64,000 bases of DNA from Liolophura sinensis (lineage: Eukaryota; Mollusca; Polyplacophora; Chitonida; Chitonidae). The notes below the pieces were generated by a model. It was given only the letters and a program-made list of their open reading frames with translations. It had not been told where the DNA came from and made no database searches. The stretch spans positions 42,196,984-42,260,983 of the forward strand of contig NC_088300.1 in the NCBI RefSeq assembly GCF_032854445.1, in the 5' to 3' direction. Positions 50,501-64,000 of this stretch are shown in pieces. How positions within the stretch are numbered: the stretch's first letter is position 1; each line of letters begins with the position of its first letter. The translations under genes were made by a program, and so were the position numbers.

Positions 50501-53500
50501 CAATCACTTTGATTATGTGACCAATTGCAATCACTTTGATTATGTGACCAGTTGCAATCACTTTGATTATGTGACCAGCTGCAATCGCATTGTAAATAAC
50601 ACAAACTTGTACAGTTTTATTCACTTATAGACAACGATGTCCAGGCAAAAATAACAATCTGAGTACGAAATAACTCTAGGTCGTCCCAGCCTTAAGCAAA
50701 TGTTATTTATTGTATTTGATTGGAATTTGACGACGTACTCGAGGGTATTTCACTTATACGACGGCGGCCAATATTATGGTGGGAGGACACCGGACAGAGC
50801 CCGGGAGAAACCTATGGCCATCAAAACGCAGATTGCGTTAGCTAATGAATTTATTAATCGAAAATATGTCATGAAATTAAGCTCACTGCTTTATGGGTTT
50901 TTTTATTATCGAGGCCCATATTTAAACATCGCAGAGGATAATAAACACAGAGCCAGGAGCATAAAAATGCCAGGTTCTGTAGCGTATGACCGCGGTGTAT
51001 AAGATTTGCCACAGACTGACCGGATACGTTCTGCCCCATCATGCGGAGGAAGGCAGTGAAGTTAAGGTCACCACGTGCTTCGGTTAACATCCTGGTTATC
51101 TCCCGTTCTGTGGGCATCTCACCTACACAGGAAGAAAACAACAGCATGCTGAGAACTCTGCTGGAGCAGCATTTATCATTCATTACAGAACCATCACTGT
51201 AACCCTTGTTTGCTTTCCAGACAAGGCCGTTACTATAACTGTACATGGCACAATCCCGCGACAGTTACCCTTGCCGTTCATAATAATGTAACCTATTGCA
51301 TAGCGACATAACAGATAACACCATACCCAGGAAGGCGACCGTGTGTGTGTGTGGGGGGGGGGGGGACATAGTTGCCATTAGATTCCGCCTAATTCACGAC
51401 TAATATGGAACAATCTTGTTATCCGTACGAATATCCCTGGGCACATTGATTCCGCTTATCTACTTCAAGCCAAAGCTAAGTTAACTACACACGGCCTATG
51501 ATTTACGTTATTCCCATACATTTAGGTTTCCTTTCTGTTTGCTGATTTTCAATGTGTAAGGAAGTGAAGTAGCGAGACAGGTTTGCCTTGCTATCACGGT
51601 GCGTTGCCAACGTTACCTGGTTACAGGACTTCACAATGGATCGCTATTATATTGAATGTGCCAAACGGTCCATATCACCTTGCATGGTTTATACCCGAAC
51701 GAAAATGTATTTATTTACTCAAAACGGAAATCTGTCGTATCGCCTAAAGAAGCCGTGGATGTGTATATGTAGTGCGAGAAGGTCGAGCAGATCGCCATCA
51801 GCATCGTCTACTCACCGAGACACGAGTATATGTCCTCTAAATCTTCCATGTCAATAAATCCATCTCGGTTCTGATCCATTAGGTTAAAAGCCTTTCAAAG
51901 GAAAAGGGAAAAAATACTGCTCAGAAATGCAAAATATACATTTAGAAATTTCCCATGGAATCCGCGTTTTAATACCATCTCACCTCAGGCGTTAAATTAT
52001 GAATTGCTTAAATTCTTCGTAAGATGTTGTGCGCATTTATTAAAGCTGGGCTGTAAATGCAACTCCGAGGTCATTCCGAGAGTGCAACCTCCACTCCAGC
52101 AAAATGTACAAATGTTCACTACAGAGCAAGGGACACTACTCTGCTTTCCTGTCATATTATCACCGAGCTGCTATCCATAAATCGCTGTGTGGGGAGCTAG
52201 CAGGGATGTGGCTTGATGATCACAAAAATAAATCCAGACGACAGTGTTGTGACCTAATAATAACTATGTGCAATTTACTAATGGTCGAAACATCCAATAT
52301 AAGCGATTAAATTACATGAGATAGTCCACTTAATTCCAACCAGAACACACTCTGGATTGGCAGTGTAGGAGTACACAAACCTACTAATGTGGTAGTAAGT
52401 TCCTATCTGCCTTACCAAGTTAAGGTAAGGCCTATTATATTAAATCAAACATCCAATTAGAACCTGTTCTCTCACCCACTTGACAACTACCTGATACGCT
52501 CTGACTTGCTACACAGGTAGGTGAAAGGAAGTTACAGGATTAGTTATCAAAACGTGTGCCGGCGCAAACTGTGGGATTATTGAACAATAAGTCTACTAGT
52601 CAAAGCCAAACCAGGTGCATGGCCTGGCTCATCGGCAGACCTATCAGTGGGCTGACACACAATTACCAGATTATTGCAAGGGATATAGTAAATACATTGT
52701 CGCCATTAATTCCACCCAGGTGACAATATCTCTTAACAGTGTGTTCAGTTTTCTGGGTCCTGATACAAATTCACACTCTACCAAAGTATAATGGATTGGC
52801 CTTTCAACCAAGGCCAACCTATGGAAAATAAAACACTTTGTCCAAATCCCTGCGTAACTATTTCTGCTAAGTTGCTTGTAAATCTTACCTCTCGAAATTC
52901 GTAAATCTGTCTCGTGGTGAATTTTGCGATCAGGCTGGTCAGTGGCGGTGCCGACTTGGAGGTTTCCGATTCGCTAAGGTTTTGCTAAAGTGGAACACAC
53001 GGGATTGTTAATCTTAGTGAGAATCCAGATTATCACGAGGTATCTGCTTCTGTCTTCACATGCATTTCCTCAAGACATTACATTGTAAGTTCGCAAGTGG
53101 GAAAATGACACAACATTTAACACGAAGGCGTATCCCTGAATACTTTTGTTGGTAAACCATTCCTTATGTGCAAATTATCAAAGTCTTATATGAACGTGCT
53201 ATACGACGGCGTTGTAAGATTTTATGTAAGCAAAAAACAAGGGATCTGCTACAGGGTTGGCTGGAGCACTTCATGGGCTGTGTTTAGTTTTGCCAACAAC
53301 CACACCATTTTCGTATCCATGCGCAGAAAACCTTGACTGACATTTTTACCGTAAATTCAATGAATTAAGTTATTGATTTTCTGGCCATAGCAGCCATTAC
53401 TAGTGTGTTTTGTAAAGCTGTCTAGCGCATTTACTATATAACCAACTGACTCAAGTCTTCATTAACTCGAACTTGACGCTTAGATTCACTAAATATGTTG

Positions 53501-57035: not shown

Positions 57036-58150
57036 GTAAACATACATTTATTTAATATGTATTATGGTAAGCTGTTATTTGCATAGGAAATGTTGTCAAT
57101 AAAATCTTGTACACCACTGACAAAGCTAGTGCCCTTCCTTGCAAACAAAATCTGTACATACCATAAGCTGCATTAACAGCAAACATTTGAAAGTCAAACA
57201 GAGTTTTTACACATTTACATTGGTCAGTCAGCATTAACCAATTAAAAAAGAGACACTGAATAAATTCAAGACTTTCAAATGATTCAATCATGCAAACTTT
57301 GAACTGAGCTGAAACATAAGAGTTGTGTTCAATACATTAACAGGTCATTTAAACCGATTTACCTCTTAACCTCAAAACCACACAACCCTACCATGCATCG
57401 GCCATCAAATCCATTAGGAATAAATAATGTACATGGTTATTGAATTTGTGCATTTTAGTTATGGGAAACTATCACAACCAAATGATACGAGGAGCTACAA
57501 AACGAAAACACATAAGCTTTTCTACAAATCAGACAATATTTGAAGCAGTTAGAGAAAGAAAACGATGCCTCGAGAATACAGAATTTATTTTTAAAATAGA
57601 AAAGTTATGCTGGGATTGGCCTTGTTTTCAATCTTGGGCATACAACTGTATCAAAATCTCAAAGTATTTGGTATAACATTGCAGGGGGGGGGGGAAGCGA
57701 GACAGACAGACAGACAGACAGATCGACGAACAGACGGACCAAGTTAACATTTTCAATTTTACCCAAAGCGTGGGATAAGCAATGTCATGGCATGGGGTTT
57801 GACTGTCGTTTCAATCTAAAAATTCCCCTCAACATTCATGGCTTTGTTCCTATCATGAGAACTGAAGGGTATTAGCAGGGTGGTTATGGACGACACGTGT
57901 TGATGGTGTATATCCAATAAGCACTTCCGTCCGCAGTGATGCCCGCGAGAATTCGGAGGTGTAGAGTGACTACAGCGTAGAGTAGCGAGAGGAAACTGCT
58001 GTAGGAGTGACAACGCTAGTATTATCATCTGTAATAGGTCTTCGCATCAGCTTCCCAGAAATCTAATTTTAGGTGCTGGGCCTTGCGCCCGCAGCTGAAC
58101 TCCTGTTGACTGTATTTGGCCATGCAGCGCCTGTGAGCTGCTGCTACTGC
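57036..58150. other. Intergenic, CAGA microsatellite, no gene seen
   Basis: A G-run and (cagacaga) repeats lie at 57684-57725. The frames at 57052-57291 and 57440-57676 are unrecognised. Confidence 0.45.
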
Positions 58151-61173: not shown

Positions 61174-61192
61174 AAACAAGATGGCGGAAGAG
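61174..61192 (+). CDS. RLC (plus) exon 1: ATG and three codons
   Basis: ATGGCGGAAGAG (61181-61192) is followed by the donor gtaagt. The ATG context is strong (A at -3, G at +4). An acceptor-like tract (catgttatctacag) ends at 61173, so this is probably a small internal exon with a non-coding exon upstream. The coding part is 12 bases. Confidence 0.75.
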
Positions 61193-63608
61193 GTAAGTAG
61201 ACATTTTGTAATATTAGGTCAGCGCATGGCAGCTGTTATATTTCTGATCAAGGTTTTGTGACAAACTTTTATATTTTAATCGGTTTAGTGTTCTTGGATT
61301 TTATATGTTCCTTGTATTTTTAGATTCTCAGATAATACAGTTAGTATGTGCCTGTACGTATAGGCCATGGTATGCAGGCCTTTCACGACCTTGGCTTTGA
61401 CCCCTCCTCTCCTATACAGACCTACACACCGGCATCAAGCGGTCCCTCAGTCTAAAAAAATTGATCGAATATCCATGACTTTAATATCGATCAAGTGTCT
61501 TAACATCTTCCAGTCATATTGATATGTATTATTGCTTTACCTTGTAGTTTATGTGTTTTACGATATATAGAGGTAACATTTAACCTTTACCCCGGATGTA
61601 ATTTTCCAGATGGCGAGTAACGCATCATTTTCAGGAATTTGATGTGCAGTGTGTTTACCATTCAAATAACTTGTATTCTCATTATTCTTAAAATTGTGAC
61701 TTAAGTTCTGGTCTACATGTTTATATAGTACAGACAACCTAATCGCGACCCTATCCACCCACCCAATCCCCTTAATTTCCCCTTCATCCTGTTTGTAGTC
61801 AGTGCTTTGGGATTCTTGTAGTCAAAGTCTAAGTCATGTGTTACATTGCAGTCAGGCGAAAAGGAAACGGCCAAGCGCCCCGGATCCAATCTCTTCGCCA
61901 AATTTAATAAACAGCAGATGCAAGAAATGAAAGAGGTATGGTTTTCAGCTAAGTGGAAAACACTAGCACATCATGATATGTAACTTGACTTCATTCTTCC
62001 CTTCCAGGCTAGCAAAAAGGCAGGCAAGGAAGATCAGCGCGCACAGCGTGCCACCTCCAACGTTTTCGCCAAGTTCAAAAAAGACCAGATTCAGGAATTC
62101 AAAGAGGTTTGCAAATGGCCACTAACATCACGTGGCAGGTCACATGACCTCTAACCCTGGCCACAGCGCATGCTCTTCGTGAGCGATTGCCTAGCTCGGT
62201 GAAGAACTAATCCTGGCTAACACATGTACATTCCTGACAGCATGATTACATCGTACACGTGCTAACGTTACTCTTCTAACACACTATACGTCCGCTCGAC
62301 AGTAACACGTATCTTTATTTCTCTTACGCTGTCCCCACTGTCTGTATTCAGTTCTCTTTAGTTCTTACACTATCAGTTGAAACACGTGTCTTCGCATAGA
62401 ATTATTGTCTACTGGCACAATTATGGCTGCGATCATCATATTCACATTAACACAGGTCTACAATAGGCCCATGTCCAACAACATGTTTTAGATCGACATC
62501 GAAACTATTTGGCGTACATATGCAGCGCGATTTTGTTTTTCTTATGTTTTCTTCCACACATTAATGAGAGAATAATGCTATAGACATATCTTTTTTGTTT
62601 TCATTTAAATTTTCCGAAAATTATAAATAATGTATTGAGAAAAATCGTGGGTAAGTGTTTCCCCGAAACAGCTAGCTAGGATGAGCTTAGATGTTCATCG
62701 TCAGTGCTGTTTACAATATCATCGGCTCGCAAATTGATGCCTACATTAAAAGCTGATGCACATGTTTGAACATGCCACATATGATCGACGGGGAATTATG
62801 CTGATGTTCCGTTAATATTGTCATCATTACTTCCTATTGTGTCATTTTGTTTCTTTTCTATATCTGATGTCTAATTTATCTTTGCTATTTTTGTTAATTT
62901 ATGTGCTGTTTCGCAGGCTGTCTTTAATCTTTATGTTAAGTCTTTGTCTTTTATGTATATTACTAACGTATGTCTCTGTCTGACTAAAGATGAAAACTGC
63001 TGTCATATAAGCGTATATACTGTATTCTTATAACATCTGCACCGATTATTGTTGTGGTTTATATATCTATAAATGGCATAAAATCTATACAATGGTTAGC
63101 ATTTCACGTGTGTGCTGTCATGAACTGTACTTTATGGATAAATGTTTTCCAGATTTTTCAAAAATATTCCCTTTAATGTTATGCTAAATGTTAAGTTTAG
63201 AGCCAGTTGTAACTGGAAACACAACAGGCATCTTACGAACCGATGAAGAAAATGAGGAAAAGTAAGGCTTTCTGGTTTTGTTTTGTTTGTTTTGTTTTGT
63301 TGTTTTTTTGTTTGTTTGTTTTTTCGTTTTCTTTTACTTTTTTTTTTTGGCTAAAATTGCTTAGTGATGGCAGTTAAGTAACGAGTCCCTTAAGTAAGAG
63401 CACCATAAACTCCACATGAGCTGTTATAGGGCAACATAAGGGCAGTTAGTTTCCTAGATCTACGGCTAGCATGTTTTTTCGTTGACCACGAATTATGGAG
63501 ACAAATCTAGGTTGAAATGGTTCTGTTTTCAGGCATTCACCATGATCGACCAGGATCGCGACGGTGTCATATCCGTGGACGATCTTAGAGAAATCTATAA
63601 CTCACTAG
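61181..63608 (+). CDS. Myosin regulatory light chain, 5' part, with two alternative N-terminal exons
   Basis: This gene encodes an RLC that binds the myosin II neck and controls contraction through cation binding and, in one isoform, phosphorylation. Coding exons seen: 61181-61192 (MAEE), 61852-61935 (exon 2a), 62008-62106 (exon 2b), 63533-63608 (EF-hand 1). All junctions to exon 3 are phase 0; exon 3 ends in phase 1. Exons 2a and 2b are alternative versions of the same segment (both contain AKF-x-K-x-Q, then QE-x-KE). The 2b isoform has RATSNVFAKF, the MLCK target of smooth and non-muscle RLCs; 2a has RPGSNLFAKF. The EF loop DQDRDGVISVDD is complete and close to molluscan muscle RLCs. EF-hands 2-4 and the 3' end lie beyond the right edge. 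Confidence 0.92.
61852..61935 (+). CDS. RLC (plus) alternative exon 2a, muscle-like N-terminus
   Basis: An 84-bp exon, phase 0-0, encoding SGEKETAKRPGSNLFAKF, NKQQMQEMKE. The acceptor is ttacattgcag and the donor gtatgg. The end QMQEMKE joined to AFTMIDQDRDG resembles molluscan striated-muscle RLC. The Ser of the MLCK site is kept, but the preceding Thr is Gly and the Ala is Pro. Confidence 0.88.
62008..62106 (+). CDS. RLC (plus) alternative exon 2b, phosphorylatable N-terminus
   Basis: A 99-bp exon, phase 0-0, encoding ASKKAGKEDQRAQ, RATSNVFAKF and KKDQIQEFKE. Basic residues followed by RATSNVF form the conserved MLCK/ROCK substrate site (Thr18/Ser19 of vertebrate RLC). The acceptor has a good pyrimidine tract (cattcttcccttccag); the donor gtttgc is weak, which suits regulated use. 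Only 72 bases separate it from exon 2a. Confidence 0.9.
63533..63608 (+). CDS. RLC (plus) exon 3: EF-hand 1
   Basis: A 76-bp exon encoding AFTMIDQDRDGVISVDD, LREIYNSL and the first base of Gly. The acceptor is ttctgttttcag and the donor gtaagt. All six loop ligands of EF-hand 1 are present. Its length and phases are identical to exon 3 of the minus-strand paralog. Confidence 0.92.
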
Positions 63609-64000
63609 GTAAGTTCAGAGAAGCTATTAACAGTTCCCGCACGGTATAATCTTATGGTTGTATAAGACAATACTTAACTTTGAACACAAAGGCAGAAAGC
63701 TGTCATGACCTGAGTAAAAAGCTCTCTCTCAGGTCAATATTTCGTGCAAAACTGTAATGGCATAACATTAATATCAGAATAACCACGCACATTTCCTCCA
63801 CAAAAACTAATTTCGGGTTGTGGCTAAACGGGAGAGTGATTTTTTTTTTGGAGGCAGTCTGAGGCCTGTTTTTGTGTTCGTGCATGTGTTGGTTCAATGC
63901 AGCTGGAGGTGTGTTTTCCAAGTTTCTTAGATTTTTTAATCCGGAAATATGCATTATCATTGATTTTTGGCTTTAAAGTGTATTACGTCCAGTATAGATA
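63609..64000 (+). other. RLC intron running off the window
   Basis: This is the start of the intron after EF-hand 1. No further exon is visible before the right edge; the 85-codon minus frame here is a chance frame. Confidence 0.7.

Follow-up and report, generated by a model that had tools for sequence, protein, structure and literature searches.

Tandem homologous N-terminal exons in a muscle-type myosin regulatory light chain gene of a chiton

Light chain pairs and exclusive exons in described systems

Two isoforms of the myosin regulatory light chain (RLC) of catch muscle were reportedly described by Morita and Kondo in 1982. According to the part available of a 2025 review, one of the two is also present in striated muscle and the other is catch specific and has a phosphorylation site; the same text calls the role of the catch-specific RLC unknown (PMC12040844), and for that reason a second lineage in which to test it is useful. 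Two scallop chains of the PDB, 3pn7_B and 2os8_B, have bodies that are identical over 129 compared residues (from AFTMIDQ to IKGS, with the last few residues outside the comparison), and their differences are confined to the segment between the common start and AFTMIDQ, which is the segment encoded by exon 2 in the chiton. The former starts ADK-ERAQRATSNVFARLPQKLMQEMKE, and in the latter ADK-AASGVLTKLPQKQIQEMKE begins at residue 2. We take both to be RLC chains of Placopecten, known under the names RLC-a/RLC-b and SmoA, and the other PDB chains used here presumably come from Argopecten and squid; the PDB entries themselves name only "scallop" and "mantle muscle" in some rows. Because the two bodies are identical, we infer that this pair, seen in the scallop as proteins only, arises by splicing, and we take the chains to represent the two catch-muscle isoforms.

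Tandem homologous exons are likewise found in the genes of muscle myosin heavy chains. The catch and striated heavy chain isoforms of the scallop are described, in the part of the source available, as different combinations of mutually exclusive exons (PMC3912159); there the exons belong to the heavy chain, whereas here they encode the N-terminus of a light chain. If the two chiton exons serve different muscles, Ca2+-linked versus kinase-linked control of one myosin would be chosen by light-chain splicing, and such a choice would parallel those heavy chain exon combinations. Exons 4a and 4b of OGDH are also exclusive, and the available part of the report on them gives as the exclusion device a size-restricted intron with branch points near the 5' splice site, mapped experimentally at 25 to 41 nt in human and 46 nt in sunfish, and discusses a steric threshold of ~50 nt for mutually exclusive exons (PMC7969005).

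The chiton gene described here resembles the scallop pair in having a short common start, a common body, and a variable N-terminal segment at the same place. The scallop chain 3pn7_B has the RATSNVF kinase site in the segment comparable to exon 2b (ERAQRATSNVFARL), as does exon 2b itself. In 2os8_B, the site is wholly absent (AASGVLTKL), whereas exon 2a of the chiton keeps RPGSNLF, so that the scallop contrast is only half matched. A pair of RLC forms is not new in kind, given these scallop chains and the documented catch isoforms. New here is a chiton gene in which the two versions lie as tandem exons, an arrangement that points to splicing as the origin of RLC pairs of this kind; tandem alternative exons would offer a gene-level explanation for the pair long known from scallop catch muscle, and they add a chiton to the animals with such a pair. 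No statement that a molluscan RLC pair arises from one gene by splicing was found in the literature searched, in which subscription papers were thinly covered, and this is not evidence that such an origin is unpublished.

We consider it probable that, in a muscle RLC gene of the chiton, the N-terminal exon was duplicated in tandem and that one or the other copy, 2a or 2b, is joined between the common exon 1 and the EF-hand body, with the 2b form responsive to kinase and the 2a form less so. Together the two forms would be the counterpart of the phosphorylatable catch RLC (3pn7_B type) and the shared RLC (2os8_B type).

The exon pair and its origin

The window, which is the whole stretch of 64,000 nt of Liolophura sinensis DNA that was analyzed, is part of contig C6 and holds on its plus strand a muscle-type myosin RLC gene. 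The coding part of exon 1 (61181 to 61192, plus strand) encodes MAEE, is common to both forms, and ends at a strong donor (GAG/gtaagt); the same start is found in the mantle-muscle RLC 3i5f_B (AEE; compare ADK in the scallop chains). Exon 2a (61852 to 61935, plus strand; 84 nt, 28 codons; SGEKETAKRPGSNLFAKFNKQQMQEMKE) has a weak acceptor and a moderate donor. It is followed by an intron of 72 nt (61936 to 62007, plus strand), GT-AG by direct reading of the sequence, and then by exon 2b (62008 to 62106, plus strand; 99 nt, 33 codons; ASKKAGKEDQRAQRATSNVFAKFKKDQIQEFKE), which has a full smooth/non-muscle-type kinase site, the strongest acceptor of the region, and a weak donor (GAG/gtttgc). Exon 3 (63533 to 63608, plus strand), common again, encodes the first part of the body with EF-hand 1 (AFTMIDQDRDGVISVDDLREIYNSL-G) and is followed by a gtaagt donor at 63609; its boundaries were read by eye, as were those of exons 4 to 7, which lie just past the window at L002 614-715, 1676-1754, 1880-1928, and 2262-2369. 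With these the coding exons are complete, the protein ends in LGEEELAA and a stop, and the joined proteins have 169 residues with 2a and 174 with 2b. The introns among exons 1, 2a, 2b, and 3 are all GT-AG. An earlier sequence-only reading of this DNA had given exon and junction coordinates that proved correct to the base, and its claims that one gene has two alternative N-terminal exons and that both are in phase 0-0 and fit between MAEE and EF-hand 1 are borne out by the sequence and its frames.

The region from 61193 to 63532 was scanned without gaps using four RLC N-termini of other animals, with 200 dinucleotide shuffles as the control. The two best peaks of all four N-termini were 2b and 2a. 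Scores at the two exons were 74 and 62 with the N-terminus of scallop 3pn7_B (best of the 200 shuffles, 27), 86 and 60 with that of MYL9 (best shuffle, 30), and 45 and 40 with that of scallop 2os8_B (best shuffle, 22); with the squid N-terminus, a short segment, they were 34 and 23 (best shuffle, 32), the lower value being reached by 5 of 200 shuffles. For three of the four N-termini, none of the 200 shuffles reached the score of the weaker exon. Both exons resemble RLC N-termini well above chance. No third N-terminal exon was found between 61193 and 63532, where the third-best peaks (11 to 18) stood at shuffle level, and no second exon 3 was found by tblastn on L002 above 22 bits, which matched the exons already known and, weakly, a minus-strand stretch (22.3 bits). 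Pfam gave no match on the two short exons.

A direct repeat of 67 nt (repeat family D1) runs through both donors. Its first copy (61874 to 61940, plus strand) takes in the end of 2a and its donor, and its second (62045 to 62111, plus strand; 73% identical to the first) takes in the end of 2b and its donor. Compared over 26 codons, 2a and 2b agree at 15 residues, 6 of these 15 with different codons, and differ at 26 of 78 bases; the NG86 method gave a dN of 0.31 and a dS of 2.2 on these codons, which are too few for a firm date, and these values come from one method without a significance test, YN00 having yielded no value. The comparison over the 26 codons suggests a duplication of some age in which both copies were kept by selection. 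The pair consists of adjacent homologous exons of equal phase which code for the same protein segment.

Identities summed over 19 columns came to 24 when sequences were paired within species (2a with 2b and scallop with scallop) and to 20 and 19 in the cross pairings; the informative columns for the three pairings number 2, 1, and 0, which is too few to decide. The sums lean slightly toward separate duplications, or homogenization within each lineage, over one ancestral pair, and they do not pair 2a with the non-phosphorylatable N-terminus of the scallop, a point that counts against the reading we favor. A broader proposal, which we hold tentatively and with some doubt, is that a splice switch located at one and the same point of the muscle RLC in both chitons and scallops raises or lowers kinase control of a Ca2+-regulated muscle myosin, and that it is either ancestral or arose twice by separate exon duplications. 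If it is ancestral to molluscs, dual regulation would be older than bivalve catch muscle.

Splicing of the two exons

The predicted splice switch within one gene is well founded, and mutually exclusive use of 2a and 2b is likely because the 72-nt intron is shorter than every one of 60 other introns estimated from adjacent exon matches in a survey that was small and biased against short introns. The minimum was 198 nt among the 20 myosin estimates and 165 nt among the 40 kinesin estimates. The sample consisted of 36 of 83 myosin matches and 76 of 132 kinesin matches, hand-picked as possible neighbors before counting, and excess lengths inside single kinesin matches amounted to 48 nt (free of stops and likely a protein insertion) and 147 nt. 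The remaining introns of the RLC gene itself range by eye from ~125 to 1,426 nt, so that the next-shortest is ~125 nt. An intron of 72 nt would probably help exclusion by leaving too little room for the U1 and U2 complexes. Its candidate branch adenines, read by eye, lie at distances of 48 and 53 nt from its 5' splice site, and they sit at the steric threshold of ~50 nt, not clearly below it.

Splice sites were scored with generic base frequencies that are not chiton specific. On this scale, the acceptor of 2b is the best (outscored by 0 of 113 other AGs) and that of 2a is weak, with 30 of the 113 scoring higher. Among 156 other GTs, which include the exon 1 donor, 3 score above the donor of 2a (the exon 1 donor is one of the 3) and 15 above the donor of 2b, which is weak. 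The strengths are complementary, with a weak acceptor and a better donor on 2a and a strong acceptor and a weak donor on 2b, and this arrangement also would probably help the exclusion.

If 2a and 2b were ordinary cassette exons, they could be skipped or included jointly, and the resulting RLCs would have anywhere from zero to two N-terminal segments. This would be compatible with the lengths of the exons, both multiples of three in phase 0-0 and in frame in all combinations, and with their splice sites, all of which are GT or AG. The body stays in frame whether both exons are included or both are skipped, and this lack of protection by the frame is counted against exclusive use. However, all 60 of the other estimated introns are much longer than 72 nt; both exons encode one and the same protein segment, and a protein with two copies of it would have a longer N-terminal part; and 3i5f_B and the two scallop chains, whose N-termini are seen, have one segment only. 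We therefore regard use as cassette exons as unlikely. A relic, in which either exon has fallen out of use and the gene yields a single RLC, seems to us quite improbable. The weak acceptor of 2a and the weak donor of 2b would fit such a history, but both frames are open, the sites are GT-AG, the segments are recognizable as those of RLCs, and an old dead exon should have decayed, whereas dN is well below dS over the 26 codons compared.

Exclusive use of the two exons, which remains the reading we favor, is not accompanied by any special RNA fold, and this too is counted against it: the fold of 61840 to 62130 was no better than shuffles (z = −0.20). Nine inverted pairs of 11 to 16 nt lie between 61193 and 63532, counted without a shuffle control. 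The motif GCATG, chosen after the fact, is present at 61224, 62168, 62240, and 63469; the copies at 62168 and 62240 lie within 140 nt downstream of the weak 2b donor and are, we assume, possible RBFOX sites.

Kinase site, calcium control, and the RLC gene family

Exon 2b carries the full RATSNVF site that the sequence-only reading had ascribed to it, in the form RxxRATSNVF, which is the smooth/non-muscle kinase site. MYL9, MYL12, and Drosophila sqh have this site in common with 2b but differ from the chiton gene, whose body groups with molluscan muscle RLC. Exon 2a carries KRPGSNLF, in which the Ser, the Arg at −3, and SN-[VL]-F are kept and the neighboring Thr and the second Arg are missing (there is no RxxR); in this it is unlike 2os8_B and 3i5f_B, from which the site is absent altogether. 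Since R-x-x-S-N-[VL]-F is retained in 2a, a loss of phosphorylation is not evident, and the exon may have a reduced site rather than no site, although this is uncertain, and its possible phosphorylation serine is a further point against the favored reading. The switch first proposed, between a phosphorylatable and a muscle-type N-terminus, stands as far as 2b is concerned and falters at the serine of 2a, so that the contrast appears weaker in the chiton than had been supposed; the molluscan-muscle-like end of 2a, QMQEMKE, was confirmed. With one exon or the other in place, the 2b isoform would be a substrate of a myosin light chain kinase, and with the 2a isoform Ca2+ bound to the essential light chain would be the main means of tuning the muscle myosin, kinase control being weaker or different.

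The Ca2+ that activates molluscan muscle is bound by the essential light chain, according to the available parts of two sources (PMC5958069; PMC2674065), and therefore the trigger does not lie in the RLC body; this speaks against the idea that splicing on a shared Ca-binding body couples Ca2+ and kinase regulation. The RLC contributes the glycine of the MGD motif, which the available part of one of these sources describes as important for scallop-type regulation (PMC2674065), and the motif is kept in the chiton gene (LLENMGDNF, aligned with squid and scallop). The splice choice would change kinase control of an RLC whose body is built to act together with the essential light chain. The EF-hand 1 loop of the chiton RLC (DQDRDGVISVDD) has Ser at the −X position, which in tarantula was read as a sign of no cation binding, in the portion of the source available (PMC2674065). 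The same −X Ser is found in scallop 1b7t_Y. We take that chain to hold a divalent ion. The tarantula reading and 1b7t_Y point opposite ways on whether the chiton RLC binds a cation.

A whole-genome search with isoform b, in which 80 matches were listed exon by exon, and its follow-up found at least six RLC genes in the chiton. Besides the gene studied there are a divergent paralog on the window's minus strand, three consecutive genes on C3, and a single gene on C7. In the stretches examined, a clear second N-terminal exon is seen only in the gene studied. A tree built from 13 bodies places this gene with the minus-strand paralog and the muscle RLCs of squid and scallop (support 84/88, with an open fork); outside the muscle group are the C7 gene, the C3 group, sqh, human MYL12B, and vertebrate skeletal MYL11, in an unresolved fork, and fly Mlc2, on a long branch. 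A body of the molluscan muscle type, not the sqh/MYL9 type, is weakly supported by this tree. The best PDB match was the mantle-muscle RLC 3i5f_B for isoform a and 3pn7_B for isoform b.

The N-terminus and EF-hand 1 of the C7 gene (L016) are 88.7% identical to MYL9 over 62 residues, a likeness that marks it as a separate MYL9/sqh-type, non-muscle/smooth RLC gene of the chiton. The available part of one study places the split between muscle and smooth/non-muscle RLC genes in the bilaterian stem (PMC5167519), and the chiton has this split as well. The suggestion that a single chiton gene takes the place of the two-gene split of vertebrates and insects is contradicted by the C7 gene and its three C3 relatives. 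That the exon pair supplies a smooth/non-muscle RLC function from a muscle gene, in place of a separate non-muscle gene, is hardly credible: 2b is 66.7% identical to MYL9 over 30 residues at the kinase site, but the C7 gene and the three related C3 genes exist separately, and the body groups with molluscan muscle RLC.

The three C3 genes, at 18.85 to 18.90 Mb (L013, L014, and L015), are MYL9-like, and one N-terminal exon with a TSN-[VI]-F site was seen in each; those of L014 and L015 are near copies. The intron after the N-terminal segment falls at FKE/AF in the gene studied (62106/63533) and at QEFK/EAF in the C3 genes L013 and L014, and the C7 gene has no intron at the place of this junction. 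The minus-strand paralog (window positions 52984 to 47503) is a divergent muscle-type RLC gene which lies upstream of the gene studied and points away from it. Its N-terminal exon (52984 to 52889, QNLSESETSKSAPPLTSLIAKFTTRQIYEFRE) is without an SNVF-type serine site, and its later exons are at 51891-51816, 51122-51021, 50328-50250, and 47598-47503, all on the minus strand. Its start-codon exon was not found, nor was a second N-terminal exon found beside it by motif; in an ungapped scan, a stretch at 57324 scored 28 versus 39 for the real exon. Viral contigs gave four pattern matches, none of them a relative.

Two further observations concern alternative exons elsewhere in these systems. Scallop chains 1b7t_Y and 2os8_B differ far more in the exon 3 segment (AFSMIDVDRDGFVSKEDIKAISEQLG versus AFTMIDQNRDGFIDINDLKEMFSSLG) than elsewhere in the part shown, a hint that scallops may have an alternative exon 3. 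In the chiton, C1:26642195-26642299 and C1:26643291-26643386, ~1 kb apart on one strand, match the same positions of the myosin-head profile (118 to 152 and 121 to 152) and may be a pair of tandem alternative exons of a myosin heavy chain gene.
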